Virus record (IMG/VR): IMGVR_UViG_3300041955_000615 | Location: 1 to 38,308 of that record | DNA: 38,308 nucleotides | Direction: 5' to 3' (one strand) | From: a virus | Shown: piece by piece, positions 3,562-32,306 of the stretch | Numbering within the stretch: position 1 is the stretch's first letter | Layout: the number at the start of each line of letters is the position of its first letter | Notes under the pieces: model-generated | What the model was told of the DNA's origin: nothing | Databases searched by the model: none | What the model saw: the letters and a program-made list of their open reading frames with translations, nothing else | Position numbers and translations under genes: made by a program

Positions 3562-3576
3562 TGTAAGTACCTGGAA

Positions 3577-8713: not shown

Positions 8714-8841
8714 TGGGCCGACTGAATCACGAATACGTGGCGGTTCTCTTGGCTGCGAAGTCTGGGTGGGGGCGTGGACGCGGGTTGCGACTGAGGGCGA
8801 AAGCCATTGAAACTGGTCTATTGGCTGGAAGTACGAAATGA
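8713..8841 (+). CDS. Small arginine-rich ORF coupled to BREX (42 aa)
   Basis: A 42-codon frame starts MGRLNHEYVAVLLAAKSG and carries a GRGRGLRLRAK stretch. Its ATG shares a base with the regulator stop (TAATG, 8711-8715) and its TGA overlaps the BrxA-like ATG (ATGA, 8838-8841). Overlap at both ends argues for translation, either as a real small protein or as a coupling cistron. No homologue is recognised and no ribosome site of its own is visible. It could be chance, but both junctions have the spacing of real operon genes. Confidence 0.55.
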   Translation: MGRLNHEYVAVLLAAKSGWGRGRGLRLRAKAIETGLLAGSTK

Positions 8842-9626: not shown

Positions 9627-10185
9627 CCAACTCCGAAAGAACTACCAACGCATCTGCGGCCTGCCGTGGGACCGCAATGTCGCCGGGGCGCAGCGCGTCT
9701 GGCTGGCGGTTTACGACAAGGAAGACGAGCGGAAGCTCCGGCTACGTCTTGGACTCTTCAAGGAAGCCACCGAACACGTCGGCCGCCACTGGCACGTCGT
9801 CGATTTCACCAACGCCTTCGCCGATTGGTTGTGCAGTCCGCCGTATTCGGATTACGCCGAAAGCTACTTCGAGTCCCCAACTCGTTTCGGAACCGCCCCG
9901 ATGGCGGCGCTCAAGAAGGCGGTTGCCGGCCAACTGACTCACACGCTCCAGACCGTCCAGCCCGCTGATGACACGGTGGTTGCCGTCTACGGCGTGGCTT
10001 CGCTGTTTGGTTTTCTCCGCATTTCCGAAATCCTGCCCATGTGCGAAAATGCCATCCGGGGCAGGCTCCTGGTGTTCTTTCCAGGGGTCTACGAACAAGA
10101 CAACTACCGCCTGCTCGACGCGCGCGACGGCTGGAACTACCACGCAGTCCCGATCACTGCCAGTGAAGGAGAGATTCGCAAATGA
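9613..10185 (+). CDS. brxB: BREX protein BrxB (DUF1788)
   Basis: The 190-residue length, the VWLAVYDKEDERKLRLRL opening, the DFTNAFADWL segment and the central VYGVASLFGFLRISEIL strand-helix followed by GRLLVFFPG and YRLLDARDGWNYHAVPI are characteristic of BrxB (DUF1788). It has no known enzymatic activity and is thought to work in complex with other BREX proteins. It starts inside the end of brxA and its TGA overlaps the brxC ATG (ATGA), so the three are translated in a coupled chain. Confidence 0.92.
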   Translation: MSRIDQLRKNYQRICGLPWDRNVAGAQRVWLAVYDKEDERKLRLRLGLFKEATEHVGRHWHVVDFTNAFADWLCSPPYSDYAESYFESPTRFGTAPMAALKKAVAGQLTHTLQTVQPADDTVVAVYGVASLFGFLRISEILPMCENAIRGRLLVFFPGVYEQDNYRLLDARDGWNYHAVPITASEGEIRK

Positions 10186-13100
10186 ACAACCGCGAAGTCT
10201 ACAACGAAGACCCTCGCACGAACACCCTGTTGAACCAGGGTGTCGCCAAGGTCAATACCCCGGAAGCCGATCCCGAGGGAAAAGCCCGCTGGCTCGAAAC
10301 GCTTCGCTTCGAGCTAACCAAGTTCGTTTGCGACGGACAATACGCCGAAGGGTTGGTCAGGATTCTCAGCACCTACCTGGGACAATTAGGCAAGTCGGAG
10401 CAACCGGGGGTCTGGGTCAGCGGCTTCTTCGGTTCCGGCAAGAGCCATCTGGTCAAGATGCTGCAACATCTGTGGATCGACTTTGAGTTCCCCGACGGTG
10501 CCAAAGCACGCGGCCTCGCCAAGTTGCCCACCGCCGTCCGCGATTTGTTCAAGGAATTGTCCACCCATGCCAAGCGCCAGGGCGGGCTTCATGCCGCTGC
10601 GGGAACGCTGGGTGCCGGGGCCGGAAACAACGTTCGCCTGGAAGTGCTCGGCATCATCTTTCGGTCGGTAGGGCTGCCGGACGACTACGCCCGTGCCAGC
10701 TTCGTCATCTGGCTGCGGCATGAGGGATTGGAAGACCCGGTGCGGAAGCATATCTCCGCCGCGAAACGCGACTTCGACTTTGAGCTTGCAAACCTCTACG
10801 TCTCCGACTCGATGGCGAAGGCCATCCTGGCGGCCCGCCCCGACTTTGCCGGCAAGCCTGCCGAGGTGAAGCTGCTGCTGGAAAAGCAGTTCCCCGAGAA
10901 GACCGACATCTCGATCGAGGAGATGGTCGCTAAGGCCCGGCAAGCCCTCCTGCGCAATGGCAAAATGCCTTGCACACTGATCGTGCTTGACGAAGTGCAG
11001 CAGTACATCGGCGAGAGCGTGGAGCGGGCCTTCGAGATCGACCTGCTCCAACGCCAGTTCACGTCGCAGCTTGGCGCGCCGGTCATCGTCGTCGCGACGG
11101 GCCAGGATGCTTTGACCGGAATGCCGCTTCTCCAGAAGCTCCAAGGCGACTTTCCCGTCACCGTCGAATTGCAGGACACCGACGTTGAGCAGGTCACTCG
11201 CGAAGTGGTTCTCAAGAAGAAGCCGTCCGCCGAAGCGGCGATCAAGAAAATGCTGGAGGATCACAGCGGGGAAATTGAACGGCAGTTGTCGAGCACGAAG
11301 ATCGCCTTCACCACGCGCGACCGTCAGTTGCTCGTGCAGGACTACCCGATCTTGCCCGTTCGGCGTCGTTTCTGGGAGCGCGTGCTGCGCGCGGTGGACA
11401 AGGCCGGTACGGGTGCTCAGCTTCGCACCCAACTTTGGATCGTCTTCGATGCCATGCAGAAGACTGCGGACCTGCCGCTCGGAAATGTTGTCGGCGGTGC
11501 CTTCCTGTTCGAGCACATCAATCCGCGCGTGCTCCAGTCGGGCGTTCTGCTTCAAGAAATCTCCGAAACGATTGCCCGTCAAAAGAAGGAAGACGACGGC
11601 GAACTTCGCTACCAGCTTTGCGCCCTGATCTTCCTGATCGGCCAACTGCCGCACAAGGGAGAGCCTGCTGACGCCGGTATTCGGGCCAACGCCGAGACGC
11701 TGGCCGACCTGCTCGTCACCGATCTCAATTCCACCAGTGCCGACCTGCGCAAGCAGGTGCCGGAATTGCTGGCGAAGCTGGTCGCTTCCGGGGCAATCAT
11801 GCCGGTTGGCGAAGAGTACCTGATGCAGACGCGGGAAGGGGCCGAGTGGAACCAGGCGTTTCAAGAGGCGCGCAACAAGCTCCTGGCAGAAGCGGGCAAA
11901 CTGGCCAGCGAGCGGTCGCAACTCCTCAACACGCATTGCAGCGAGGTTCTCAAGAAGTCGAAGCTCACTCACGGTGCCAGCAAGGAAGCGCGCCGATTCG
12001 CTTTGCACTTCGGGCCAGATGCCCCTTCGTCAGACGGCAGTGAGATTCCCGTCTGGATTCGCGACGGATGGGAAGTCGAAGAGAAGACAGTGCTCAACGA
12101 TGCTCGAACGGCTGGCGACTCCGCGGCGGTCGTCTACGGCTTCATACCACGGAACCACGCTGAAGAGATCAAACAGGCGATTGCCACCTACTACGCGGCC
12201 GAAAAGACCCTGGAAACCAAGGGAACACCAAGCAGCAACGAAGGAATCGACGCGAAGAAGTCGATGGATACCCGCCTGACCCAGGCCCAACAACTCCGCG
12301 ACAGTCTGATTTTTGACTTGCTTGACGAAACCTCGATCTACCTGGCGGGCGGGGAGTTGGTCAACGGCATGTTGCTCACCTCCAAGGTCGAAGACGCCGC
12401 CAAGGCGTGCCTCGACCGGCTTTACCGCCAATTCCATCTGGCCGATTCGCCGGAATGGCCCAAGGTCATCAAGCGGGCGGAAAAGGGCGATGGCGATGCG
12501 ATGGCTGCGGTCGGCCACAAAGGCGACCCCGAAACCCATCCCGTGTGCAAGGCGATCCTCGATTTCGTCGGTTCCGGGAAGAAAGGGACCGAAATCCGCA
12601 AGAACTTCGGCATTCCGCCGTATGGCTGGCCCCAAGACGCCATCGACGCAGCGCTAATCGTGCTCCACACCGGCGGCCAAGTGCAGGCCCGTAGCAGCGG
12701 CGAGATGATCGCCAAGGGAAAACTCGACCAGAAGAACATCACCACGATCGAGTTCCGCGTCGAGACGATCACGCTTACCAAGGTCCAATTGATCGCGTTG
12801 CGCGGGCTGTTCAAGAAGGTGGGCTTGAACACATCTCCGAATCAAGAGTCGGTCGATGCCCCGAAGTTCCTTGACAGGTTATCAAAACTCGCTGGAGAGG
12901 CCGGGGGCGATGCCCCGCTTCCCAAGCCGCCCGCCACGACCCATCTGACCGACTTGGCCAATCGCGTCGGCAACGACCAGTTGAAGGCGATCCACGAGCA
13001 GAAGGCCCGGCTGGAAAAGGAAATTGCTGACTGGCAGAAGCAGGCGGAAAGCATTGCTCAGCGACAACCCCGGTGGAAGCAACTCACGGCGCTAATCGAC

Positions 13101-13634
13101 CATGCGGTCGATTTGCCGGTTGCTGCCGAGGTCCAACCCGAAGTAACGGCCATCGAACAGAACCGTTGTTTGCTGTCCGCCCCCGATCCGGTGCCGGGCC
13201 TCGTGGAGAAGTTGGCTGCTGCCCTGCGGGAAGCCATCAACCAGGCCCACGCCGCCTGCGTGACCAGTCACGAAAACGGGCTCAGCAGTCTCGATGCTTC
13301 GACCACCTGGCAGAGGCTAACCCCGGAGCAGCGTTACGAGTTGCTCTCTGAATACAGCGTTCGCCAAGTGCCCGTGATTTCCGTGGGCACGCCGGAGGAG
13401 ATTCTCAATACTCTCCGGCAAACCAAGCTGAGCGAACTCAGGGCACTCAGCGATGCGTTGCCAACTCGCTTCGGCAAGGCCCTAAATGCCGCGGCGAAGC
13501 TGTTGGAGCCGAAGGCTCAGCCAGTCACGTTGCCGGGTGCCACGATCAAGAATGACGATGACCTCAAGGCGTGGCTGACTTCGGCGGAAGGGAAAATCCG
13601 TGAGAAGCTGAAAGACGGCCCAGTTATTGTGTAG
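10182..13634 (+). CDS. brxC: BREX P-loop ATPase BrxC
   Basis: This 1150-residue protein begins with the BrxC-typical region MNNREVYNEDPRTNTLLNQG. It has Walker A GFFGSGKS (81-88) and Walker B LIVLDEVQQYIGES (about 266-279). The large C-terminal half includes a long helical, probably coiled-coil, part around 925-960 (KAIHEQKARLEKEIADWQKQ). Length and motifs are normal for type 1 BREX. BrxC is an essential cytoplasmic ATPase of the system, probably assembling with BrxB, PglX and PglZ. Only 9 bases separate it from pglX. Confidence 0.95.
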   Translation: MNNREVYNEDPRTNTLLNQGVAKVNTPEADPEGKARWLETLRFELTKFVCDGQYAEGLVRILSTYLGQLGKSEQPGVWVSGFFGSGKSHLVKMLQHLWIDFEFPDGAKARGLAKLPTAVRDLFKELSTHAKRQGGLHAAAGTLGAGAGNNVRLEVLGIIFRSVGLPDDYARASFVIWLRHEGLEDPVRKHISAAKRDFDFELANLYVSDSMAKAILAARPDFAGKPAEVKLLLEKQFPEKTDISIEEMVAKARQALLRNGKMPCTLIVLDEVQQYIGESVERAFEIDLLQRQFTSQLGAPVIVVATGQDALTGMPLLQKLQGDFPVTVELQDTDVEQVTREVVLKKKPSAEAAIKKMLEDHSGEIERQLSSTKIAFTTRDRQLLVQDYPILPVRRRFWERVLRAVDKAGTGAQLRTQLWIVFDAMQKTADLPLGNVVGGAFLFEHINPRVLQSGVLLQEISETIARQKKEDDGELRYQLCALIFLIGQLPHKGEPADAGIRANAETLADLLVTDLNSTSADLRKQVPELLAKLVASGAIMPVGEEYLMQTREGAEWNQAFQEARNKLLAEAGKLASERSQLLNTHCSEVLKKSKLTHGASKEARRFALHFGPDAPSSDGSEIPVWIRDGWEVEEKTVLNDARTAGDSAAVVYGFIPRNHAEEIKQAIATYYAAEKTLETKGTPSSNEGIDAKKSMDTRLTQAQQLRDSLIFDLLDETSIYLAGGELVNGMLLTSKVEDAAKACLDRLYRQFHLADSPEWPKVIKRAEKGDGDAMAAVGHKGDPETHPVCKAILDFVGSGKKGTEIRKNFGIPPYGWPQDAIDAALIVLHTGGQVQARSSGEMIAKGKLDQKNITTIEFRVETITLTKVQLIALRGLFKKVGLNTSPNQESVDAPKFLDRLSKLAGEAGGDAPLPKPPATTHLTDLANRVGNDQLKAIHEQKARLEKEIADWQKQAESIAQRQPRWKQLTALIDHAVDLPVAAEVQPEVTAIEQNRCLLSAPDPVPGLVEKLAAALREAINQAHAACVTSHENGLSSLDASTTWQRLTPEQRYELLSEYSVRQVPVISVGTPEEILNTLRQTKLSELRALSDALPTRFGKALNAAAKLLEPKAQPVTLPGATIKNDDDLKAWLTSAEGKIREKLKDGPVIV

Positions 13635-13643
13635 AGGCAAGGC

Positions 13644-16600
13644 ATGTCCGCACTCGACTCCAAATTGCGATCCCAACTCGACTGCGTTTGCCAGAAGGCC
13701 CGCGAGAAGGCTGAAGAAGCGGCGCGGTCGGCCTTGCAGAAGCGGGCCGTCGATGCCGCCGAGCCGCACCCACATTTTACGGCCGTGGAAAGGGCACTAC
13801 GGAACCGATTACGAGCCCGCGGTCGCCAGGCCGGCGATGTTCGACAGGCCAATAAGACCCAGGGCATCGAGCAACTGAGCCAGGAACTTGCTTACGAATA
13901 CTGGCACCGAATGCTGTTTGCCCGCTTCCTGGCCGAGAACCAATTGCTCATGCACCCGAACGGCGTGGCCGTCAGCTTGGAGGAATGCGAGGAACTGGCC
14001 AAGTCGGAAGAGGCGACCGATGGCTTTGCGCTGGCGGCCCGCTACGCCAGCACGATGTTGCCGCAGGTCTTCCGTACCGATGACGTGCTGTTGGAGATCG
14101 AGTTTGCACCCGAGCATCGCCTGGCTTTGGAGAAGCTTCTCGCAGCGCTGCCTAGAGAAACCTTCTTGGCCGACGACAGCCTGGGCTGGGTCTACCAGTT
14201 CTGGCAAAGCAAGAAGAAGAAACAGGTAAACGACAGCGGCCAGGCGATCGACGGGCGGACACTGCCCGCGGTGACGCAGCTATTCACCGAAGACTACATG
14301 GTGCAGTTCCTCTTGCACAATACCATCGGGGCCTGGTGGTGTGCCCGGCATGAAATCAAAGGGCCTTCCGGTGGAGCAGGCATTCCCGCCGACAAGGCCC
14401 CGGTTGAGGTGCCCTATTTGCGATGGCGGGACGACGGTACGCTGGCCGCGGGCACCTTCGACGGCTGGCCGAAGACGCTTAACGAGTTCAGATTGCTAGA
14501 CCCCTGCTGCGGCAGCGGGCATTTCCTGGTGGCGGCCTTCAATCTGTTGGTGCCGTTGCGGATGCGCGACGACGGACTGACGGCACGGGGAGCCTGCGAT
14601 GCGGTGCTGCGCGAGAATCTCTTTGGCCTCGAACTCGATCCCCGCTGTACGCAGATTGCGGCATTTGCCCTAGCCGTGGCGGCATGGAAGTATCCCGCCG
14701 AGGACGGCCAGCCGCTTGGCTACCGCGAATTGCCGTCGCTGAACATCGCCTGCGCGGGTATTGGCCCGCAAGCTACTGAGGACGAATGGCTGAGGTTGGC
14801 TGAGCAATCGGGCAAGCCTATGTCGGTGCTGTCGCGCGAGCCGATCCTGAACGGTCTGCGGAATTTGCACGCTCTGTTCTCTGACGCCCCGACGCTTGGA
14901 TCACTCATTGATCCGAACCAATTGTCAGCCGACCTAATCAGCGCTGATTACGAGACGTTGCAGCCCTATTTAGCCGCCGCGCTGACGGCTGAGTACACTG
15001 ATGACGATGCGCACGAGCGAGCCGTTGCCGCCGCCGGCATGGTCAAGGCGGCCGAACTGCTCGCTGGGGAATACACGCTGGTTGTTACCAACGTGCCGTA
15101 TTTGGGGCGCGGCAAGCAAGGCCAGACCTTAAAGGATTACAGCAAGCGTCTATACTCTCATTCGATGTGGGACTTGGCAACGGTGTTCCTGGAACGCTGC
15201 CTCGCTCTAACAGCAACCGGAGGAAGTGCGGCGATTGTGAGTCCCAGCGGTTGGCTTTCCTTGAAAACGTATGAAAAACTTCGTCTAAGTTTGGTTGCAT
15301 CACGGCAATGGATGTTGGTGGCAAGGCTTGGACCGCGTGCTTTTGAGACAATCTCGGGCGAAGTGGTCAACGTCACCCTGGTCGTTCTCTGTAATGCTAG
15401 GCCGGACGACCGGCATACCGTGGGTGCCGTCGATGTATCTGACGCTATAGACGCACAGGAGAAGGCCAATCAAGTGCGGAGGATTCCACTGCAAATCGCT
15501 CCGCAAGGCAACATACGAAAGAATCCTTCTGCCCGCTTTGTGTTCTCCGAGTATGAGCATGATCTTCCACGACTGGGCACTTACTGTTCGATTCTCCAGG
15601 GTTCATCCACCGGGGATGATCCGAAGTTCGTGCGATGCTTCTGGGAAGTCAGTGACTTCGAGAATCAATGGAAGTTGCTCTTGTCTGCGCCGGACAACGG
15701 AATTGCCAGTGGTCGGGAATACGTATGGCGATGGCCGGACGAGGATTGCGAACTTGCGCATTTTCCAGAGGCTCGTATCAGAGGCAAATCCAGTTGGGGA
15801 CGCGAGGGTTTTGTTGTCGCTGGCTCATCTACGGTTACCGCGACCGTCTATCGCGGTGAGTTCTTCAACAAGCTCTTGGTCACCATCATACCGAACGACT
15901 GGAAGACGGCAGGTGCCGTGTGGAAGTACATTTGCGCTCAAGAGTTTTCGGATAACGTCCGTAAGCTCGATACGAAGAACCTGATAACGCCAGGGGTCTT
16001 TGCCAGCGTTCCGTTTGACCTGGAAAGATGGACAGCCCTCGCTAAAGGCGATGAACTTCCAACGGTGCTACAATCGAACGACCCGACTCAATGGCTGTTC
16101 AATGGCTGTATCCCGAGCAGCACCGCTCCACTGCAAGTCGTAATCGCGAGATTGCTTGGCTACTGCTGGCCGCCAGAGGAGGAACGCCCTCATCTTGGCC
16201 CTCTTCCAGAGGGAAATGAGATGGGAGGAATGAGCCTCAGCACGCGGACGAGAAAAGTAGTCAGCCGATCTGACGAACTACTTAGGTTTGCCGACGACGA
16301 TGGCATTGTCTGCATCCCGGCCGTTCGGGCTGAATCTCCCGCCGCCGAACGGGTACTTGATGTCTTGCACGCGGCATACGGCCTGAAATGGTCGAACTCG
16401 CTTCTGCACGACCTGCTGACCGACGCCGACTGCAAGCCGGGCACAACACTTGACGAATGGCTTCGCAACGATTTCTTCGAGCAGCACTGGAAACGCTTCA
16501 ACCAGCGCCCATTCGTCTGGCAAATCTGGGACGGCCGCAAGGACGGCTTTTCGTGCCTGGTGAACTATCACAAGCTTAACTACAAGACGCTCGACAACCT

Positions 16601-17024
16601 GACGCACTCGTACCTTGAGGGTTGGATTAAGAAGCAGGCGGGCGATGCAAAGACCGGCAAGGCCGGTGCCGACTTGCGGCTTGCCGCCGCCCAGACGTTG
16701 CAACAGAAACTCAAGCTGATCCTTACCGGAGAGCCGCCCTACGACATTTTCGTCCGCTGGAAGCCGCTCCATGAGCAACCCATTGGCTGGAACCCCGACC
16801 TGAATGACGGCGTGCGAATGAACATCCGCCCGTTTGTGAAAGCGGGCATTCTGCGGAAGAACCCGAACATCAACTGGACGAAGGACCGCGGCAAGGAACC
16901 GGAGCGGGACAAGGACGACTACCCGTGGTTCTGGAAAGGCAAGGAATTTACTGGTGAGCGCGTCAACGACGTTCACCTAACCAACGCTGAAAAGCAGGCG
17001 GCACGAAGCAGGAAAGGCGGGTAG
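13644..17024 (+). CDS. pglX: BREX-1 adenine-specific DNA methyltransferase PglX
   Basis: PglX adds N6-methyl groups to adenine in the BREX recognition site, marking host DNA and taking part in phage exclusion. Motif I (LLDPCCGSGHFLVAAF, from about residue 283) precedes motif IV (TNVPYLGRG, about 480), the gamma-class order. NVPY replaces the usual NPPY, a tolerated variant. The N-terminal helical region (1-280) and C-terminal target-recognition part (about 640-1126) give the normal length of 1126 residues. One oddity is a short palindromic insertion near residues 847-863, described separately. The final C-terminal block EFTGERVNDVHLTNAEKQ is typical of the family. Confidence 0.95.
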   Translation: MSALDSKLRSQLDCVCQKAREKAEEAARSALQKRAVDAAEPHPHFTAVERALRNRLRARGRQAGDVRQANKTQGIEQLSQELAYEYWHRMLFARFLAENQLLMHPNGVAVSLEECEELAKSEEATDGFALAARYASTMLPQVFRTDDVLLEIEFAPEHRLALEKLLAALPRETFLADDSLGWVYQFWQSKKKKQVNDSGQAIDGRTLPAVTQLFTEDYMVQFLLHNTIGAWWCARHEIKGPSGGAGIPADKAPVEVPYLRWRDDGTLAAGTFDGWPKTLNEFRLLDPCCGSGHFLVAAFNLLVPLRMRDDGLTARGACDAVLRENLFGLELDPRCTQIAAFALAVAAWKYPAEDGQPLGYRELPSLNIACAGIGPQATEDEWLRLAEQSGKPMSVLSREPILNGLRNLHALFSDAPTLGSLIDPNQLSADLISADYETLQPYLAAALTAEYTDDDAHERAVAAAGMVKAAELLAGEYTLVVTNVPYLGRGKQGQTLKDYSKRLYSHSMWDLATVFLERCLALTATGGSAAIVSPSGWLSLKTYEKLRLSLVASRQWMLVARLGPRAFETISGEVVNVTLVVLCNARPDDRHTVGAVDVSDAIDAQEKANQVRRIPLQIAPQGNIRKNPSARFVFSEYEHDLPRLGTYCSILQGSSTGDDPKFVRCFWEVSDFENQWKLLLSAPDNGIASGREYVWRWPDEDCELAHFPEARIRGKSSWGREGFVVAGSSTVTATVYRGEFFNKLLVTIIPNDWKTAGAVWKYICAQEFSDNVRKLDTKNLITPGVFASVPFDLERWTALAKGDELPTVLQSNDPTQWLFNGCIPSSTAPLQVVIARLLGYCWPPEEERPHLGPLPEGNEMGGMSLSTRTRKVVSRSDELLRFADDDGIVCIPAVRAESPAAERVLDVLHAAYGLKWSNSLLHDLLTDADCKPGTTLDEWLRNDFFEQHWKRFNQRPFVWQIWDGRKDGFSCLVNYHKLNYKTLDNLTHSYLEGWIKKQAGDAKTGKAGADLRLAAAQTLQQKLKLILTGEPPYDIFVRWKPLHEQPIGWNPDLNDGVRMNIRPFVKAGILRKNPNINWTKDRGKEPERDKDDYPWFWKGKEFTGERVNDVHLTNAEKQAARSRKGG
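16187..16228 (+). repeat. REP-like palindrome inserted in frame within pglX
   Basis: A nested hairpin has an inner perfect stem CCCTCT/AGAGGG (16199-16204 with 16208-16213, loop TCC) and an outer CTCAT/ATGAG pair (16189-16193 with 16216-16220). It encodes the peptide RPHLGPLPEGNEMGG. Peptides of the form PHxGPLPEGE are, from memory, the usual translation of a palindromic repeat scattered through many bacterial genomes. The frame stays open, so the protein has gained a short loop. No second copy was noticed in this window. Confidence 0.55.
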
Positions 17025-17026
17025 GC

Positions 17027-17716
17027 ATGGCCCGTAAGCGGTCGCAAGGCATCTGTGGTCTGTGCGGAGATCGCTCGGAAGTCACGCGAGAGCACTTTGT
17101 TCCGCGCTGTCTTTGGTCCGGGCCGCTGCCAGTTCGCACAGAGACGGTTCCTGCTTGCGACCGATGCAACGCCGGATCGAATCTTGACGACGAGTATTTC
17201 CGAAACGCGCTTGTGATGACGTTCGACTTTGACAACCCACAGAAGGAGCAGATTTTTCAGGGGCCTGTCTTGCGGAGTCTCAAAAGGCATCCTGGTTGGG
17301 TCGCCGATGCGCTTCGGCAAATGAAGATTCGGCCGCTACTGACTCCTGCCGGATTGTGGCTTGGCGATTACCCGGCGTTGCCACTCGATGGCGAGCGGTA
17401 CTGCCGCAGCCTTGTGAAAATCATAAAGGGCCTTTACTTCTTGATCCGTAAGCACCCTTTTCCTGCTGATGGTCAAATTGTGAACTGTGCCCACCTGTGT
17501 GCCGAGACGTTGCCACTCATCAACCTGATCGAAGAAAACCTCTCGCCCACATTCGATTTCGGGGACGATGTTTTCGAGTGGCGATTTGGGCAAAACAAAG
17601 AAGGCGTTACTATGTGGAAACTCAGCTTTTACCGAAGTGTCGTCTACTACGCAATCGGCTTTGACAAAATGGTGGACTGGCAGGCTGAAATAGAATCACG
17701 CAAGGCCCCGCAATGA
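17027..17716 (+). CDS. HNH-type endonuclease inside the BREX operon (229 aa)
   Basis: The first 60 residues have the zinc-finger HNH layout: C10-x2-C13, then R21-E22-H23-F-V-P, then C44-x2-C47-N48 and a Gly/Ser-Asn stretch, as in HNH nucleases with structural zinc. The remaining 170 residues are an unrecognised, partly hydrophobic alpha/beta region. It starts 2 bases after pglX and its TGA overlaps the pglZ ATG (ATGA at 17713-17716), so it is fully built into the operon. Accessory genes between pglX and pglZ are known in BREX loci, but this one is not part of the standard six. It may cut unmodified or modified phage DNA. Catalysis is inferred from the motif only. Confidence 0.8.
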   Translation: MARKRSQGICGLCGDRSEVTREHFVPRCLWSGPLPVRTETVPACDRCNAGSNLDDEYFRNALVMTFDFDNPQKEQIFQGPVLRSLKRHPGWVADALRQMKIRPLLTPAGLWLGDYPALPLDGERYCRSLVKIIKGLYFLIRKHPFPADGQIVNCAHLCAETLPLINLIEENLSPTFDFGDDVFEWRFGQNKEGVTMWKLSFYRSVVYYAIGFDKMVDWQAEIESRKAPQ

Positions 17717-20106
17717 ACAGCAATCTGGCAAGTGGCACGGTCTTCGACGCGATCCTGGCATCGCTCCAGGCCGCCGCCGTCTATCACAAGGACGACGTGG
17801 TTCAGCCGGCCGCGATCCTCTGGACCGACGAAAGGCGGGAGTGGGAACGACTGATCCCCCGGCTGCGAATGATGCTGCCGTATTTCTTGGTATTCGGTCC
17901 CTACGACAAGGCGAACAGGACTGGCCCGGCCATTTGGCTGCGATGTGTCATAGCCGAGAGAATCCCAGAGACCTGCATCCCGTCCGGCTCCGTTCCCATA
18001 ATTTATCTGCCCGGAGTCAGTCGGGCAACAATTCGCGCGACCGAAGAGTGCCCCCAAGAACTCAAGCCGCTTGCCGAGCTTCAGTACCGAGGGGTATTTT
18101 GGTCTCAGGTGAACGGCAAGGACTGGACCGTCACCGCATTCCTCCAGACCAACCACGGGGGCCTGCAACTGAAGATCGCCAGGGACAACGCGACGACGGC
18201 CTCGATTCGCCGGTCCCTGGAAAAGTTGGTCGATGTGCCGGTCGCGGAACTTCAAGCCAAGGCGGTCAGCGGCGAACTGGGCAGCAGTTATTTCGATTCG
18301 TTGGTGAGCGACGACTTGGTGGACGACCTGCTCTCGTGGCTTGGCGATCCAAAAGGCACACGCGACCGCTGGGAGCCGAGCCGCTGGGAAATCCTGTGCA
18401 GCCGGTGTATCGCTGACTATGGCTTCGACCCGGCCCGTGATGGCGAACTGGTTGGAGCCGAAAAGCTTGGCCTGCAAGAGAAGCCGATCTGGAAGACCGC
18501 CTGGAAACGGTTCGCCACGGTCCCACTTCGGTACGCGGGCCTTCTGGAACTCTTGCGAAAGGCCAAGCCGACGCCGACGCCGGGCGACTTGTTCGCGTCG
18601 CAACGAGTAGAGTCCTGGCCGCAGGACAACGAGACGGAGGAAGCGGCGTTACGACAAGCCCTGGCGAAGGTTGCGGCATCCTCGGTGGCGGAAGCCCGCA
18701 AGAAGCTGATCGAGTTGGAAAAGGCTCATTACCAACGGCGGCAATGGGTCTGGGCTAAGATCAATCGCTCACCGCTTGCCCATGCGGCCGAGCACCTCGC
18801 AACTTTGGCCGAAGTCACCCAAACTTCGCTGACCGGCGCGACCACGACAGAAATGGTGAAGGCGTACACGGAGGGAGGCTGGCGAGCCGATGCGGCGGTC
18901 TTGGACGCTCTGGCCGCCGTGGCGCAGCCGCCGGATCGGGAAGCGGTCCTGGGGGCCGTCAAGCATGTCTATGCTCCCTGGCTGCGAGATGCCGCAGAAT
19001 TGTTTCAAGAGCGAGTCAAACAGCAGCCCTTGCCAGGCCGAAAAGTGCCTCGTCTGGCCGACGTGCCGGCCGGCACTTGCGTGCTTTTCGCCGATGGCCT
19101 GCGGTTCGATGTGGCCCAAAAACTCCGCGCCGCGCTGGAAGTGAAGATTGGGAAGGTCCAGAGTCAGCACCAATTCGTCGCTCTGCCTTCGGTTACGCCA
19201 ACTGCCAAGCCTGCGGTTTCTCCGGTCGCTGGCAAGATCACAGGGTCCGACGCGGGCGAGGAGTTTCGGCCCTGCGTCGATGCGGGCAGCAAAGACCTGA
19301 CGCCCGACCGATTCCGAAAGCTGCTGGAGGATGAAGGCTATCAGGTCTTGGCGGCAGCCGAGACGGGCAACCCCGCCGGCCGCGCCTGGACCGAGTTCGG
19401 CAATTTGGACTCGACCGGCCACCAGGAGGGTAGCGGGCTGGCCCAGCGGATTCCCGAACTGATCGTCAGCCTGGTGTACCGTGTTGAATCGTTACTGGCC
19501 GCGGGTTGGCGGGAAGTGAGGATTGTCACCGACCACGGCTGGCTGCTCCTGCCGGGCGGCCTGCCGAAGACGGACCTGCCGAAATACCTGACCGAAACGC
19601 GCTGGCGACGATGCGCCGTGGTCAAGGAGTCGGCCAGCGTCGAACTGCCATGCTTCTCGTGGTTTTGGGCCGAGAAGGTGCGGATCGCCTGTCCGCCAGG
19701 AATCGACTGCTTCATGGCCGGCGAAGAGTACAGCCACGGCGGTCTCAGCTTGCAGGAATGCTTGGTTCCGCAGCTTTCGGTCGTCGCGGGCGCGCAACCG
19801 GCGGTTACGGCGAAAATCGAGAGCGTGAAGTGGGCCGGGCTGCGATGCCGGGTCAAAGTGAGCGGGCAGTTCGACGGATGCAAAGCCGACCTGCGGGACA
19901 AGGCAGCAGACCCATCCACTTCGTTGTTGTGTGATCCGGCTGTCGAATCGTCCCCCTCGAAAATATGGGCCAAGACTGTGGGCCAGGACGGTAATGTCGC
20001 CCTGATTGTGCAGGACGATACGCGGGAAGGGAGTGCAACGACGTTGGTATTGCTCGATGCGGCAGGCAGTGTGATCGACAAGAACCTGGTTACGGTTGGA
20101 GGTTAG
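17713..20106 (+). CDS. pglZ: BREX-1 phosphatase-superfamily protein PglZ
   Basis: PglZ is the hallmark BREX protein with an alkaline-phosphatase-type core. Metal-site motifs are visible at VLFADGLRFDVAQKL (about 456-470), VTDHGWLLLPGGLP (about 604-617) and the HGGLSLQECLVPQ block (about 676-688). The N-terminal 400 residues (strand-rich start, then WLGDPKGTRDRW and helical stretches) match the BREX type 1 form, and the length of 797 is normal. Its biochemical role in BREX is not settled; phosphodiesterase/nuclease activity has been reported for homologues. It is coupled to the HNH gene by ATGA overlap and followed by brxL 6 bases later. Confidence 0.95.
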   Translation: MNSNLASGTVFDAILASLQAAAVYHKDDVVQPAAILWTDERREWERLIPRLRMMLPYFLVFGPYDKANRTGPAIWLRCVIAERIPETCIPSGSVPIIYLPGVSRATIRATEECPQELKPLAELQYRGVFWSQVNGKDWTVTAFLQTNHGGLQLKIARDNATTASIRRSLEKLVDVPVAELQAKAVSGELGSSYFDSLVSDDLVDDLLSWLGDPKGTRDRWEPSRWEILCSRCIADYGFDPARDGELVGAEKLGLQEKPIWKTAWKRFATVPLRYAGLLELLRKAKPTPTPGDLFASQRVESWPQDNETEEAALRQALAKVAASSVAEARKKLIELEKAHYQRRQWVWAKINRSPLAHAAEHLATLAEVTQTSLTGATTTEMVKAYTEGGWRADAAVLDALAAVAQPPDREAVLGAVKHVYAPWLRDAAELFQERVKQQPLPGRKVPRLADVPAGTCVLFADGLRFDVAQKLRAALEVKIGKVQSQHQFVALPSVTPTAKPAVSPVAGKITGSDAGEEFRPCVDAGSKDLTPDRFRKLLEDEGYQVLAAAETGNPAGRAWTEFGNLDSTGHQEGSGLAQRIPELIVSLVYRVESLLAAGWREVRIVTDHGWLLLPGGLPKTDLPKYLTETRWRRCAVVKESASVELPCFSWFWAEKVRIACPPGIDCFMAGEEYSHGGLSLQECLVPQLSVVAGAQPAVTAKIESVKWAGLRCRVKVSGQFDGCKADLRDKAADPSTSLLCDPAVESSPSKIWAKTVGQDGNVALIVQDDTREGSATTLVLLDAAGSVIDKNLVTVGG

Positions 20107-20112
20107 GCCGCA

Positions 20113-22158
20113 ATGGAACTGGATCATCTTGATAAGATCGCAGCCGAAGGGTTCGACGGCTACATCGTCCGTAAAGACCTTGTGCGGAAGTTCGCCCGGC
20201 AGTACCCGGTGCCCACTTACGTCTGCGAGTTCCTGCTGGGTCGCTACTGTGCCAGCGTCCACGAGGAGGAAATCCAAGAAGGGCTGAGCATCGTTGAGCG
20301 GCAGCTTCGCGACCGGGCCGTTCGCAGTGGCGAGGAAGAACTGTTCAAAGCCCGCGCCCGTGAAACGGGCACCGTGAAGATCATCGACATCATCTCGGCG
20401 CGCCTCGACGCGAAGACTGACTGCTATCTGGCGACCCTGCCCAGCCTGCAACTGAAGGATGTGAGTATTCCCGACAAGTTGGTCCGGGACAACGAGCGGA
20501 TGTTGACGGGCGGGTTCTATGCGGAGATCGACCTGACCTACGACGCTTTGGTTGCCCAGGAGAAGAATGGCAGACCGTTCGCCATCGCGGCCCTTCGGCC
20601 GATCCAGTTGAGCAAGCGCGACGTTTTGGATGACCTCTATAGCGGGCGGAAGCGATTCAACACCGCCGACTGGAAACGTTTTCTTCTGCGCAGCGTGGGC
20701 CTTGAGCCCGAGGCTATGGCCGAACGGAACATGGACGTTCTAATCCTGCGAATGGTGCCGTTCGTAGAGAACAACTACAACATGGTCGAGCTTGGCCCGC
20801 GTGGCACCGGCAAGAGCCACCTCTTCCAACAAATCTCCCCCTACGCCCATCTGGTCAGCGGCGGCAAGGCGACCGTCGCCCGGATGTTCGTCAATATGTC
20901 GAACGGGCAGCGCGGACTGGTTTGCCAGTACGACGTGGTGTGCTTCGACGAAGTTTCGGGCGTGTCCTTCGACCAGAAGGACGGCGTGAACATTATGAAG
21001 GGCTACATGGAGTCGGGGGAGTTCAGCCGTGGGAAGGAAAGCATCCGGGCCTACGGCGGGATCGTCATGGTGGGCAATTTCGAGGTAGATGTCCAGCACC
21101 AACAGCGGATTGGCCATCTATTCGGCCCGATGCCGCCGGAAATGCGCAACGACACCGCGCTGATGGACCGTATCCACTGCTATCTCCCCGGCTGGGACGT
21201 GCCGAAGATTGCGGAGCCACTGAAGACGGACCATTTTGGTTTGGTCAGCGATTTCCTCAGCGAGTGCTGGAGCCGGCTGCGAAGCCACAGCCGGTCATCG
21301 GCCCTTCAGGGGCGGGTCGTGTTCGGCGGTGCCCTCAGTGGCCGCGATCAGAACGCCGTGCGCAAGACGGTCAGCGGCCTGCTGAAGCTCATCTATCCCT
21401 GCCCGGATGCTCCAATCGCCGAAGAAGACTTGGAATGGGCAGTTCGGCTGGCGATGGAATCTCGTCGCCGTGTCAAGGAACAACAGAAGCGAATCGGGAC
21501 TGCCGAGTTCCGCAACACGCAATTCAGCTATACGATTGGCAACGATGGGGTTGAGAAGTTTGTCGTCACCCCGGAATTGCAGAGCGAAGACCATATCGGG
21601 CGCGACCCCCTGCCCCCAGGCCAAGCCTGGGCGATCAGTCCCGGCGGGCAGGACGAGGGCTCAGGGCTCTACCGGATTGAAGTTACGGAAGGCCCAGGCA
21701 GCAGCGTGCGTATCCTGAACCGGCCAGCACCGCAGGCATTTTCGGAATCGGTGAAGTACGCTGAGGCCAATCTCTGTTCGCGGGCCGGGGAGTTGGTTGG
21801 CGACCGCAATCCTCGGGAGCATGAATTCTCGATCCAGCTTCGGGCCTACGACGCGAGCAAGACCGGCCGTGGCTTGGGCATGGCAGCCCTGCTGGCGATG
21901 TGCAGCGCCCTCATTAACAAAAGCCTTCGCGGTGGCCTGGTCGCTGTCGGTGGCCTGAACCTGGGCGGCTCAATCGACCCGCTCTACAACGCCATCGACA
22001 TCGTGGAAGTGGCCGTCGAGAAGGGGGCGTCGGTTGTGCTGATGCCCGTCTCGTCGAGGAAGCAATTGTTCGAGCTTTCGGACGACCTGGCGACGAAGGT
22101 GACTATAGTGTTCTACAACGACGCCCGCGAGGCATTGATAAAGGCGATTGCGGAATAG
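20113..22158 (+). CDS. brxL: BREX-1 Lon-like AAA+ protein BrxL
   Basis: The N-terminal part (1-200) holds the BrxL-specific DNA-binding region (YIVRKDLVRKFARQYPVPTY). The AAA+ core has Walker A GPRGTGKS (229-236) and Walker B VVCFDEVSG. The C-terminal 140 residues have the Lon-protease fold pattern: EFSIQLRAYDASKTG, GMAALLAMCSALI, VGGLNLGGSIDPLYNAIDIVEVAVEKGA and VVLMPVSSRKQ. At the place of the Lon catalytic serine (usual G-P-S-A-G) the sequence is T-G-R-G-L-G-M-A, with no serine, so proteolysis looks unlikely. Length 681 is normal. It completes the standard type 1 gene set; two further genes follow after 59 bases. Confidence 0.95.
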   Translation: MELDHLDKIAAEGFDGYIVRKDLVRKFARQYPVPTYVCEFLLGRYCASVHEEEIQEGLSIVERQLRDRAVRSGEEELFKARARETGTVKIIDIISARLDAKTDCYLATLPSLQLKDVSIPDKLVRDNERMLTGGFYAEIDLTYDALVAQEKNGRPFAIAALRPIQLSKRDVLDDLYSGRKRFNTADWKRFLLRSVGLEPEAMAERNMDVLILRMVPFVENNYNMVELGPRGTGKSHLFQQISPYAHLVSGGKATVARMFVNMSNGQRGLVCQYDVVCFDEVSGVSFDQKDGVNIMKGYMESGEFSRGKESIRAYGGIVMVGNFEVDVQHQQRIGHLFGPMPPEMRNDTALMDRIHCYLPGWDVPKIAEPLKTDHFGLVSDFLSECWSRLRSHSRSSALQGRVVFGGALSGRDQNAVRKTVSGLLKLIYPCPDAPIAEEDLEWAVRLAMESRRRVKEQQKRIGTAEFRNTQFSYTIGNDGVEKFVVTPELQSEDHIGRDPLPPGQAWAISPGGQDEGSGLYRIEVTEGPGSSVRILNRPAPQAFSESVKYAEANLCSRAGELVGDRNPREHEFSIQLRAYDASKTGRGLGMAALLAMCSALINKSLRGGLVAVGGLNLGGSIDPLYNAIDIVEVAVEKGASVVLMPVSSRKQLFELSDDLATKVTIVFYNDAREALIKAIAE

Positions 22159-28199: not shown

Positions 28200-28369
28200 G
28201 GATCTTCTCCAGGGTTCGTAGGTGCTACTTCGATGATGTCGCCGCCATAGTCGTCCGCGAAGGCCACTTCGTCTTCCGGCCACTGGTCGGTCTCGACTTC
28301 GGCGATCAATTCGGCCCGCACTATCGAGCGTGAAAGGAAGCCGGTGGAGCGGTAGATGCGAAGCGTCAT
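28196..28369 (-). CDS. Small acidic protein, unknown function (57 aa)
   Basis: This 57-residue protein starts MTLRIYRSTGFLS and is acidic and strand-rich, with no recognised motif. It overlaps the primase-helicase stop and the DUF5664 start by ATGA junctions on both sides, which supports translation. Upstream in-frame starts would only add antisense-like sequence. Confidence 0.65.
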   Translation of the reverse strand: MTLRIYRSTGFLSRSIVRAELIAEVETDQWPEDEVAFADDYGGDIIEVAPTNPGEDP

Positions 28370-31020
28370 GGCTTCTCCTTTTCCGCCGGCTTGAGGGTCA
28401 GATGCGGAACAAACTTCGCGTGATCTGTGCCGGAAATGGTTTTGTGCCGCACGGGCAGTTCTCTGCCGACGCGGTTCTTCGACCAGGCGTGTTTCTCGGA
28501 CGCACCGAGCCATTGCTGGAAGCGGTCATAAAACTCTGCGAATGCGGTGTGTTTGCCCGGCGTCTGCGTGCAGCGTTGCGCGATGAAGTCCTCCACGACT
28601 GTCTGATTATCCTCCTGAGCCTCCCTCTTGCTGGCCGTCGTTACCACCGGTAGCCGCAGTCGGTCGATCATGGGCGGCAATTCCAAGTGCATGAGCGTGT
28701 AAAGGAAGTGCGGGGCTTCCTGGTCGAGAAGTGGCTCCAGCTTCGGCTTGGCGATCTTCTGCTCTTCGAGTAGATCGCCGACAGAGATCGCCGTGATGCG
28801 GGTGTCGCCGGGGAAGACGGGGCAGTTCTCACGTTTATTGGCCGTCTGGACCCAGTGGGTCGCGTTGGGCTGCGCGAAGCAGTCGTGCCGCATCTTGCGG
28901 ATCAGGATGGTTCGCCCGGTGCTATACTCCTTGATCTTGGCATGGGCACCGGGGGCCTTGGAGATGTCCGTTTCCTCCACCGCACAAATGATCGCGCCGG
29001 ATAGTTCGCCGTTGAATTCACTGGTGAGCGATCGTTCGGCCTTGACCACGCCCTTCGTTACCAGCCGTTGCAAGGACTCGTAGAAAATGCTCTTCCCGCT
29101 GTCCTCCGGGCCGAAGAAGAAAAGGTACGGGAGGGGCTGGAAGGGGTCGCGGAAGGCACAGGCGACCCAACTCCGCAGATAGGCGGCCCCCGTCTTGATG
29201 TTCGCCTCGATGGCCCAGGGCAGTTCCCGCAGCACAGGCGTTAGCTCGTGGCCGATGTGCTCGAAGATCAAGTCCCAATGCGGATGGCAGGGAACTTCGT
29301 CGTCCGCCAACTCGGCCGGCTTGTACTTGAACTGCGCGGCGTCGAGATTCCATTGCCGGCCGCCGGGGTACTCCTCGCGGAAGGGCAGATTGACCAGTCG
29401 CCAGCCCCGCGCTGCGGCTGCGCCCATGATGGCCTCAGCCTCATTCTTTGCATGGCCCAGGCTTTGCAGCAACATCTTGACGTTCGAGGCGGGGTGCCGG
29501 ACCCATTCCTTCTGCTTCTTCATTACCCAACCGGCGTGCTCGACGGCAGCCGTCTCTACCGCGCGAATGACGCCATCAAACTCGTTGAAATCGAGTTCGT
29601 CGTCTTCCTTCGGGTCCGTCTTGACCGTGAAAATCTTGACGTACTTTCCCTTCTTGTCGTCCCAGCCCTCTATTGGCCCCTCCTCTTTCTTCCGTTCGAC
29701 TTCCACGACCAGCCGGCCGTCCTTGTGGGCCTTGAGCGTCACCTTGCGGTCGCCGATGTTGTCCGGCAGTGTTAGGTCTTCGCCCAGAGTCTTGGCGGCT
29801 TGGATGGCGGCGGTGGCCGAGGCGAAGACGTAGCCACCTTGTTCCCGCTCCACGCCACCCAATCGCGTACAAGCGGTGGCCAAGTCCGGGTAACGATTGA
29901 AATAGCAGGTGGTCCATCCCTGGCCGTCCTGGGTCCAAGTGTCGGCCTCATTGATGCCGGGCGAGAAACGATAGACCCGCCATGCCCCATTGGGCAGGGG
30001 AAAGAGGAAGCAGTTGGGCGTGCCGGGGTCGCGTCCCTCGGAGATCGTCTTGAAGATGCCCACCAGCTTCAGGGCCTTGTCCTCGGGGCCTTCCAACAGA
30101 TCGCGGAGGGCCGTGGTATGGGTCTGCAACAGATGATGGTCGGCGACCCAGAGGGTAGTTGCCCCGGAGCGCATCAACGCTTCGATCTGGGCCTTATGGC
30201 TCTCATCCAGTGGGATGATCTTCCGGCTGGATGCCAGGGCCTCGAAGGGGTCCACGTCGTTTTCGGCCACTTCATTGATGCGGACCTTCGTGCGGCGGCC
30301 CTTGACCACCTCGATGTGATCGCGCCAGTTGGCCGGCAGGTCGGCTACGCCGAGCCGCTTGGTGGCCGGCTTGATAATCTCCAGCCCGTGGTTCTCGGCC
30401 GACATCTTCCTGTGCCATATCCACATGACGTGGCCGCAGGCGTCGATTGCGCTGGCGAAGTCGAAGCCCACATCAGCCGACATCATTCCCAGGATGCAGC
30501 GGGCCAGCGCGGCGTGCTCAGTGTGGTTCGCGGTCGGGACGCCCGCCTCGTCGAGGTAGACGTAGAGGTGGATGCCGCCGCCGCCCGTGCTGCGGCGGAC
30601 TTCGACGTAGGGAAGGGCGCAAGCCGCCTGCTTGACCTTCTCCAACTTCCTTTCGTCAATGCCGATGCCCTGGGCGTGGCCGGTCAAGGCGTCGAAGTCA
30701 TAACCGAAGTGCCGCGAGCGGCGGGCCTCCCAATCGAACCCCGTCATGCCAATGCCTTCGGCGTAGAGATCGAAGGGATAGCCGATCTTGTAGTCGTCCC
30801 ACGTCGGGTCGCTGGCGGCATTCTTAGGAATACGGATGCTGTGCCAGGTATCGCTCCCGTTGGACCAAGTGGACTTCTTCCCGGCCACAGGCTCGCCGTC
30901 GCCGGCAATTACGTTTACCTGGGTCTCCATCGCAACAGACCACCGATCCACGAGATCGACGTTGGCCGGCGTCTTACGGGCCTGGAGGAAGTTATAGAGG
31001 GCTTCGCTGACTAGGGGCAT
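28366..31020 (-). CDS. Phage/plasmid-type primase-helicase (884 aa)
   Basis: The N-terminal 250 residues look like an archaeo-eukaryotic-type primase: acidic MTGFDWE and FGYDFDA segments and a STGGGGIHLYVYLD strand pair, as in primase-polymerase cores. The middle part (250-550) is unassigned. The C-terminal part is a helicase-type ATPase of the DUF5906/SF3 kind: Walker A FFGPEDSGKSIFYESL (about 636-651), acidic strand IICAVEETDISK, and HWVQTANKRENCPVFPGDTRI, as in D5-like helicases. ATG 31020 is preferred because a GAGAGAGAT purine tract precedes it and the longer frame adds unlikely sequence. It should prime and unwind DNA for this element's replication and heads the minus-strand operon. Confidence 0.85.
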   Translation of the reverse strand: MPLVSEALYNFLQARKTPANVDLVDRWSVAMETQVNVIAGDGEPVAGKKSTWSNGSDTWHSIRIPKNAASDPTWDDYKIGYPFDLYAEGIGMTGFDWEARRSRHFGYDFDALTGHAQGIGIDERKLEKVKQAACALPYVEVRRSTGGGGIHLYVYLDEAGVPTANHTEHAALARCILGMMSADVGFDFASAIDACGHVMWIWHRKMSAENHGLEIIKPATKRLGVADLPANWRDHIEVVKGRRTKVRINEVAENDVDPFEALASSRKIIPLDESHKAQIEALMRSGATTLWVADHHLLQTHTTALRDLLEGPEDKALKLVGIFKTISEGRDPGTPNCFLFPLPNGAWRVYRFSPGINEADTWTQDGQGWTTCYFNRYPDLATACTRLGGVEREQGGYVFASATAAIQAAKTLGEDLTLPDNIGDRKVTLKAHKDGRLVVEVERKKEEGPIEGWDDKKGKYVKIFTVKTDPKEDDELDFNEFDGVIRAVETAAVEHAGWVMKKQKEWVRHPASNVKMLLQSLGHAKNEAEAIMGAAAARGWRLVNLPFREEYPGGRQWNLDAAQFKYKPAELADDEVPCHPHWDLIFEHIGHELTPVLRELPWAIEANIKTGAAYLRSWVACAFRDPFQPLPYLFFFGPEDSGKSIFYESLQRLVTKGVVKAERSLTSEFNGELSGAIICAVEETDISKAPGAHAKIKEYSTGRTILIRKMRHDCFAQPNATHWVQTANKRENCPVFPGDTRITAISVGDLLEEQKIAKPKLEPLLDQEAPHFLYTLMHLELPPMIDRLRLPVVTTASKREAQEDNQTVVEDFIAQRCTQTPGKHTAFAEFYDRFQQWLGASEKHAWSKNRVGRELPVRHKTISGTDHAKFVPHLTLKPAEKEKP

Positions 31021-31205
31021 TGATCTCTCTCTATGCAATGTGCTTCCAGGTTCGACGATTGACGCTGCACGAGACGATGCCGGGTAATACACCCAATGCC
31101 GCGTCGTTCCACCTTGGACAAGCAACCGTCGATCGCTTCAGGCATCAGGATGGGGATCGGTTTTGTCTCGGGCATCGGCGATTTTGGCAGAGCGTATAAA
31201 CGCAT
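31011..31205 (-). CDS. Possible small leader protein before the primase gene (64 aa)
   Basis: A 64-codon frame (MRLYALPKSPMPETK at its start) ends 10 bases into the primase gene. Its composition is protein-like (balanced acidic and basic residues) and the overlap is operon-like, but no ribosome site is seen at ATG 31205 or at the inner ATG 31175. It may be real or a chance frame in the leader. Confidence 0.3.
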   Translation of the reverse strand: MRLYALPKSPMPETKPIPILMPEAIDGCLSKVERRGIGCITRHRLVQRQSSNLEAHCIERDQCP

Positions 31206-31239
31206 CGCGCGCGGAGCCTCGAAACTGGTCCGCGTAGAT

Positions 31240-31318
31240 ACCTACACATAACTCCCAAACGGCCGTGATTTTTCAGGAGGTCTGAAAAAAAACGCGGATT
31301 TGGGAGTTATGTGTAGGT
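31240..31318. repeat. Perfect 20-bp inverted repeat with nested 8-bp repeat
   Basis: Arm 31240-31259 is the exact reverse complement of 31299-31318. Within the 39-base centre, TTTTTCAG (31269-31276) and CTGAAAAA (31282-31289) form a second perfect repeat around GAGGT. The element lies between the divergent replication operon and the ParB-like gene, whose GTG start (31317) and GGGAG ribosome site (31302-31306) are inside the right arm. It could be an operator for both operons, a partition or origin site, or an mRNA stem that hides the ParB start. No classical parS sequence is present. Confidence 0.85.
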
Positions 31319-32306
31319 GTCGAACTATGGCGCGGATGCACCGATGCCCGAGCAACCTGACGAATTCCGCCTGATTCCCTTGGACCAGATCATCGAGCCG
31401 TGGGTCGTCCTGCGGGTCGTGGATCGGGAGTCCGTCGAGTACCTGGAACTGCGTGACTCCATTGCCCACCAGGGCCTCCTCAACTCGATCTGCGTGCGGC
31501 CATCGCCGCGGACGCCGGGCAAGATGGAAGTCGTGGACGGCCTTTACCGCCGGGCGGCATGTTGCGAACTGCGGCGGCCGGCAATGCCCTGCATCGTCAA
31601 GCACAACCTTACGGACGAAGACGTGCTGGCGATCCAGATTCAGGCCAATGCCTTGCGACCCGAGACGACCGTGATCGAGTATGCCCGCCAGATCAGGCGG
31701 ATCATGGATGCCATCCTGGCTCGGCAGGGAAGGGATGCCACGCTGGCCGATGTGAGTAACCTGGTCCACAAGACCCCGGAGTGGGTCCGGCAGCAACTTG
31801 ATCTGCTCAGCTTGCGGGCGGACATCCAGAAGGCCGTGGAACGCGGCGAGATACCGCTTGGCTCGGCATACGTGCTCGCCAAGTTGCCGCGATTTCACCA
31901 AGCCCAACTCTTGGACTTGGCAACAACCGCCGCGGCGCGGGAGTTCGTTCCCGTGGCAGCCCGGCTGGTCAAGCAGATTCAAGAGGCGGCCCGCCAAGGG
32001 AAGCTGCACGATTACTGCAAGGACTTCGAGCCAGTGCCTTACTTGCGCTTTGTGAAGGAAGTGCTTGCCGAGTACCGCGAGCATCGCCTGGGCGGCTTGG
32101 CCATTGTGAAGGCCGAGTGCAAGACGCCGGTGGACGGCTGGTATCTGGCCCTGCAATGGGCGCTGAATCTGGACGAGGAAAGCATCCGTGAACAACGAGA
32201 GAAATTCCTGGCGCGAACCCGCGCGACTGTACTGGAACGGAGGATAGAGCCATGTGACCACACTGAGACGAGCACCCTGAACGACAACCTGAACGACAAC
32301 GAGTAA
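31317..32306 (+). CDS. ParB/Spo0J-like nuclease-domain or partition protein (329 aa)
   Basis: The N-terminal half has the ParB fold pattern: IPLDQIIEP near the start, YLELRDSIAHQGLLNSICVRP, an EVVDGLYRRAACCEL block in place of the usual G-E-R-R box, and DEDVLAIQIQANALRPETTVIEYA. A helix-turn-helix follows (ATLADVSNLVHKTPEWVRQQLDLLSL), then a helical C-terminus ending in a tandem LNDN repeat (12-bp duplication at 32277-32300). GTG 31317 has GGGAG 10 bases upstream; ATG 31344 is an alternative. ParB proteins bind centromere sites or regulate transcription. No ParA is visible in the window. The adjacent inverted repeat is a candidate target. Confidence 0.82.
   Translation: MSNYGADAPMPEQPDEFRLIPLDQIIEPWVVLRVVDRESVEYLELRDSIAHQGLLNSICVRPSPRTPGKMEVVDGLYRRAACCELRRPAMPCIVKHNLTDEDVLAIQIQANALRPETTVIEYARQIRRIMDAILARQGRDATLADVSNLVHKTPEWVRQQLDLLSLRADIQKAVERGEIPLGSAYVLAKLPRFHQAQLLDLATTAAAREFVPVAARLVKQIQEAARQGKLHDYCKDFEPVPYLRFVKEVLAEYREHRLGGLAIVKAECKTPVDGWYLALQWALNLDEESIREQREKFLARTRATVLERRIEPCDHTETSTLNDNLNDNE

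Follow-up and report, generated by a model that had tools for sequence, protein, structure and literature searches.

A perfect inverted repeat between the divergent replication operons of an uncultivated phage as a predicted back-to-back pair of phage promoters

Introduction

What function is served by a long and perfect inverted repeat placed between the two divergent replication operons of a phage? This question is raised by a virus contig of 38,308 bases from IMG/VR, referred to here as the window (i.e., the whole stretch of DNA that was analyzed), which carries no end repeats and is probably a fragment. The repeat lies between its primase operon and its ParB operon, and could in principle act on DNA, as an origin, a protein-binding site or a set of promoters, or as a folded strand. 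Phage-encoded sigma factors that act on few, conserved promoters are known from phiEco32 and Salmonella phage 7-11, and homology between these two phages served to corroborate their promoters (PMC4331800).

The lineage is distant from characterized phages: the nearest named phages of its TerL are ~26% identical, the primase had no match among named phages, and scans of 84,980 prokaryote genomes with ParB and TerL, performed as a host search, gave no match. The same contig carries, together with the phage replication genes, a full BREX set and a nearby DNA cytosine methyltransferase gene (Table 1), which represent either a phage-borne BREX system or host DNA beside a provirus.

Results

The inverted repeat and the genes around it

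A first-pass annotation had described nested perfect repeats, 20 bp around 8 bp, and these are present at 31240-31318 as described (Table 1). The arms are identical over 20 bp and extend to 23 bp with one T.G wobble; in random sequence of the length and composition of the window, ~7e-6 perfect 20-bp repeats with a gap of at most 100 are expected. The predicted fold of the repeat amounts to -52 kcal/mol, Rfam has no family for it (only a chance match to a plant miRNA was returned), and neither iterons near the repeat nor a GC skew switch at it were found.

Table 1. Features of the window, with promoter elements and transcription starts given as predictions
Feature	Coordinates	Strand	Description
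DNA cytosine methyltransferase	6613-7695		near BREX genes
BREX set	8838-22158	+	BrxA, BrxB, BrxC, PglX, PglZ, BrxL (PADLOC)
DUF5906 primase	28366..31020	-	Pfam PF19263; ATG at 31020 behind GAGAGAG ribosome site
64-aa ORF	31011-31205	-	MPETKPIPILMPEAIDGCLSKVERRG...; no Pfam match
Palindrome GCGTATAAACGC / GCGTRTAAACGC	31192..31203		in primase leader; kept at same place in most relatives
Hairpin-like stretch	31204-31239		CGCGGAgcctcgaaactggTCCGCG
Arms, 20 bp, ACCTACACATAACTCCCAAA	31240-31259 / 31299-31318	+ / -	perfect, identical
Arms, 23 bp	31237-31259 / 31299-31321		one T.G wobble
Inner 8-bp repeat TTTTTCAG / CTGAAAAA	31269-31276 / 31282-31289		
Leftward promoter element (primase operon)	31240..31278	-	predicted; A-tract CTGAAAAA, spacer, core TTTGGGAGTTATGTGTA (31243-31259), GGT; PWM 45.4
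Rightward promoter element (ParB operon)	31280..31318	+	predicted; GTCTGAAAAAAAACGCGGA, core TTTGGGAGTTATGTGTA (31299-31315), GGT; PWM 50.1
Putative transcription start, primase operon	31241..31242	-	mirror image of right element
Putative transcription start, ParB operon	31316..31317	+	GG after TGTA; by reference to solo copies
ParB-like gene	31344..32306	+	ParB_N and HTH_ParB domains; likely ATG start

On the left side, the homologue of the primase in the relative G003 is a PHROG DNA primase, with homology beginning at 31020. On the right side, the ribosome site and GTG start that had been assigned to ParB within the right arm are present as sequences (GGGAG and GTG 31317), but the GTG does not serve generally as a start codon, since L011 and L018 (the same sequence; G003) contain an in-frame TGA between its equivalent and the conserved ATG (31344). 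ParB probably starts at this ATG, a start that the first-pass annotation had itself named as evidence against its proposal.

Some further features of this region are recorded as observations in their own right. The flanks of the palindrome in the primase leader lengthen it in the relatives G001-G030, each genome has a further 1-4 copies at other places, in some cases inside conserved genes, and a search of 30 records gave 38 matches to its pattern and 0 to the reversed one. The second small hairpin-like stretch, which separates the palindrome from the left promoter element, shows apparent compensatory changes in relatives and would fall in the primase mRNA leader. The 64-aa ORF resembles by eye the start of an HNH endonuclease and, as an insertion that separates primase from promoter, is confined to some relatives (W, L006, L014, L016). 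Finally, a second ParB-like protein, also with ParB_N and HTH_ParB domains, is encoded ~9 kb from the first in most close relatives (L081:16688-17524 on the minus strand, G003).

Relatives keep the repeat in place while its arms vary

Relatives were gathered through the ParB-like protein, amounting to 13 and then to 43 viral loci (33-97% identity), and 42 relatives with upstream DNA were examined. A long inverted repeat with arms of 15-60 bp is found slightly upstream of ParB in ~38 of these 42; one or other scan showed L060 (33% identity) to be an exception, as was L056 when the repeat was taken in its ungapped form, and the inverted repeats of L050 and L052 are weak. The sequence of the arms varies from phage to phage and their complementarity is kept: in a 12-sequence alignment, 98.9% of the stem cells are paired and 10 pairs are changed on both sides, both far above shuffles. 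Mismatches in the stems comprise 43 G.T against 19 A.C, an excess that stems largely from few left/right differences common to related genomes. Arm distance does not follow genome-wide protein distance among the close genomes (rho 0.01). In the most distant relatives (L048, L050, L051, L056-L058), resemblance between the arms often extends over 40-60 bp, compared with 23 bp in the close group.

A solo copy of the arm heads the packaging operon

Elsewhere in the window, no further copy of the arm was found within 3 mismatches. In relatives, whole contigs revealed a third copy of the arm, without an inverted partner, upstream of another gene. In G003, this gene encodes a 183-aa Cys-rich protein and is the first of a packaging/structural operon that continues on the same strand with a gpA-type terminase, portal, major head protein and tape measure (a search for the PF04466 terminase was negative, the phages carrying the gpA type). 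The solo ~39-bp copy lies just upstream of the first gene of this operon in all 8 contigs that reach the gene; contigs without it either lack TerL or end within ~3.5 kb of it, and G017 and G018, from distant relatives, showed no terminase and thus offer no site at which a third copy could be checked.

Over 18 bp, each of the 8 solo copies differs from the arm of its own genome at 0 or 1 position, and they resemble these arms rather than those of relatives; of the 40,320 ways of assigning solo copies to arms, the true one ranks alone at the top, with a sum of 4 mismatches where the runner-up has 8. The solo copies stand 20-30 nt ahead of the start codon with a ribosome site right behind TRTA-GG, and no local hairpin was present in the two solo loci checked. 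One exception is G001 (103 kb), which has two packaging-operon head genes, at 3476-4054 (+) and 77172-77732 (-), as well as two portal matches; one head-gene promoter is of its own variant and the other of a foreign variant near the G009/G008 type, the off-type variant being that of the copy adjoining the terminase. This duplicate reflects either recombination or a chimeric contig.

Each arm belongs to an asymmetric promoter-like unit

The left and right arms share one register with the solo copies along the direction of transcription, consisting (at approximate positions) of an A-tract TGRAAAAAA (-33 to -25), 6-8 variable bases, TTTTGG as a T-tract followed by G's (-18 to -13), a stretch specific to each genome (-14 to -5), TRTA (-4 to -1) and then GGT. 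A 39-column weight matrix (PWM) was applied to both strands of 17 contigs (~1.2 million bases). Built from the same copies that it finds, apart from the fourth site of G001, the matrix scored them at 27-56 bits, and nothing else exceeded 13.7 bits; the fourth G001 site was recovered independently at 44.9 bits. There are thus 2-3 copies per genome (4 in G001), each oriented with transcription at the head of the primase, ParB or packaging operon, and the two units of the window, which together take up exactly the interval marked by the first-pass annotation, stand one base apart. Since the solo copies match the arms of their own genome and the scan finds only these copies, each arm would represent one promoter.

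The position of the transcription start is suggested by the solo copies, where the ribosome site lies within few nt of TRTA-GG and transcription should therefore begin at about that point; a start further downstream would delete the ribosome site. With this start, TRTA would be too near for a sigma-70 -10 box, the variable stretch would occupy the -10/extended -10 place and the A-tract the -35 place, with ~17 bases between them. GTG 31317 would fall at +2 of the putative ParB transcript. The proposal that the ParB start is hidden in a 20-bp stem is not supported with these starts, because it needs a read-through transcript and transcription would begin at the outer edges of the repeat, with ParB likely starting at ATG 31344.

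A phage sigma factor is the candidate reader

A protein family of ~225 aa common to the contigs displays sigma-70 region 2 and region 4 features. All 18 members (18/18) correspond to PHROG_351 'RNA polymerase sigma factor', the family matches solved PDB sigma factors at 1e-14 and sigma factors in Foldseek with probability 1.00, its Pfam Sigma70_r2/r4 matches are weak, and an AlphaFold model shows a loose domain arrangement (pTM 0.51). Of 31 records, 21 carry the gene, among them the closest relative of the window; the other records, including the window, are fragments, and a sigma factor for the 38-kb window fragment, from which the gene is absent, is predicted by reference to G023.

Covariation between proteins and promoter core was tested on 12 close genomes only, since every protein reaches ~0.5 with the arms when distant genomes are included. 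Sigma columns 121-160, which by analogy would comprise the end of region 2.4 plus region 3.0, covary with the core (rho 0.52, p 0.0005), a p value that is not free of selection, as functional grounds led to the choice of the sigma factor and a scan then located the sub-region. The best correlation of this segment is with core positions -16 to -10 (rho 0.55); the half at -9..-3 showed no significant covariation with it in the close set (0.14, p 0.16), and region 4 gave 0.02 against the core. Among the controls in the same genomes, ParB gave rho 0.01 (best window 0.10), primase -0.02, PolA -0.11, SSB 0.01 and helicase 0.18; the second ParB-like protein did not covary with the core (non-helicase controls span 0.01 to -0.14), and the top 25-column window in any control reached 0.31.

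By eye, PPRS accompanies GGCAG, PHTS/PRTS accompanies GGGAG/GGGGG/GGGAC, and PHES..RLA accompanies TTGGGG. G023, whose arms equal those of the window and which was outside the fit, is nearest in region 3.0 to G005 (84%), the arm of which is tied nearest with 1 mismatch; G026 also has an arm 1 mismatch from that of the window, yet its sigma factor is only 48% alike in region 3.0, and G007, 78% alike in the sigma segment, has an arm that is near in -16..-10 and not in -9..-3. When 60 shared families were screened, whole-length sigma took only fourth place (partial correlation 0.29; plain Mantel p 0.08), outranked among others by a CPIGCNQC-type Cys-rich protein (about 0.57-0.58, p 0.004, n=10) and a DNA methyltransferase (about 0.53-0.55, p 0.014, n=11), both of which were set aside as readers because nothing suggests promoter reading. 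That promoter specificity follows the sigma factor is thus suggested by correlation only, in a segment found by scanning.

Discussion

Our results suggest that each arm is probably one asymmetric phage promoter of ~39 bp, with the pair of the window standing back to back between two divergent replication operons, and that the reader is most likely a phage protein of the sigma-70 family. According to this model, the protein would reprogram the host RNA polymerase, its region 2.4/3.0 would read the variable extended -10 stretch, and the constant A-tract would be read by the host polymerase and/or by region 4; the third, single copy would drive the packaging/structural operon, and one sigma factor may bind all three sites and set their timing. 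The arms would be complementary across phages because both promoters must suit the same sigma factor, and not because of base pairing.

Folding of the repeat itself, as a hairpin of the ParB leader RNA or of ssDNA (e.g., a priming site), would make the compensatory changes real, and is favored by the paired stem cells and double-sided changes far above shuffles, the G.T excess and the stable predicted fold. An RNA hairpin was in fact the first leading idea, owing to the strong covariation and this excess, and was dropped once the genome-matched solo copies appeared: in 8 genomes a partnerless unit still covaries with the arms of its own genome, and neither solo locus checked has a local hairpin. 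As, in addition, the putative transcripts leave at the outer edges without the stem, and the G.T excess is largely due to few left/right differences of related genomes, we consider folding improbable. Somewhat less so, though still unlikely, is that a phage immunity regulator, either repressor or activator, acts on each arm as an operator overlapping a host-polymerase promoter, operator and regulator co-diverging as in the cluster A stoperators. Here, no covarying repressor family was found among the 60 shared families, the localized covariation belongs to the sigma factor, and a variable stretch at the -10 place means that host sigma would lose its own contacts. An operator would suit sites that are asymmetric, orientation-dependent, low-copy, placed before key operons and different between relatives, and G003 encodes a resolvase-type recombinase; cluster A repressors likewise bind asymmetric sites as monomers (PMC9283540), but the stoperators of the L5 clade track genome distance (PMC6550527) and the arms studied here do not.

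The three functions offered by the first-pass annotation fared differently. Its bidirectional operator came closest, in that the element is predicted to act divergently, as a pair of promoters for the primase and ParB operons. That the repeat is an ideal site for the ParB-like protein, analogous to parS, or a replication origin is suggested by its location between primase and a ParB_N/HTH_ParB gene, and appears very improbable to us: the unit is long and asymmetric, its third copy heads the packaging operon, the ParB protein does not covary with the arms, and for an origin, the unit recurs elsewhere and the site lacks a skew switch.

The predicted promoters can be compared with three known systems. 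Promoters of T7-type single-subunit RNA polymerases span ~20 bp, with a constant TATA-GG at the start and a variable upstream block matched to the polymerase. The units described here share the TATA-GG-like start and the variable upstream block, and differ in having an upstream A-tract and a sigma factor; PF00940 was found in 0 of 31 records, in a search where no control genome matched as a positive control. As in phiEco32 and 7-11, a phage sigma-70-family factor is accompanied by few, well conserved, low-copy promoters, which in those phages stand before middle and late operons (PMC4331800); in contrast, each genome here has three predicted promoters, of which two abut back to back, and the core sequence varies among close relatives along with sigma region 2.4/3.0. 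Cluster A stoperators (L5, Bxb1) are also asymmetric and direction-locked, with a consensus that shifts per genome with the reader protein (PMC6550527, PMC9283540), but these repressor sites measure 13 bp, number 20-30 and diverge along with genome distance, whereas the present units are predicted ~39-bp promoters in three copies, unlinked to genome distance, and the covarying protein is a sigma factor. The abutting back-to-back pair, the three-promoter regulon and the turnover of specificity between close relatives independently of the remaining genome distinguish this system from those known.

These findings provide an uncultivated phage lineage with a predicted three-promoter transcription program and a named candidate reader, testable in vitro. 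They also constitute a warning that perfect 'compensatory' covariation of an inverted repeat may arise, without base pairing, where a site that co-evolves with its protein is present in two divergent copies. As a tentative idea, which we hold to be possible rather than probable, the promoter-reading segment of the sigma factor and its three promoters may switch specificity jointly and at a much higher pace than the remaining genome, perhaps because phages of the lineage that infect the same cell could otherwise use or block one another's promoters. If so, the lineage would represent a natural library tying region 3.0 residues (PPRS, PHTS, PHES..RLA) to extended -10 sequences (GGCAG, GGGAG/GGGGG, TTGGGG), and its sigma-promoter pairs would form a readable set of matched specificities, of use for understanding how sigma region 3.0 selects the extended -10 and for obtaining orthogonal promoters.
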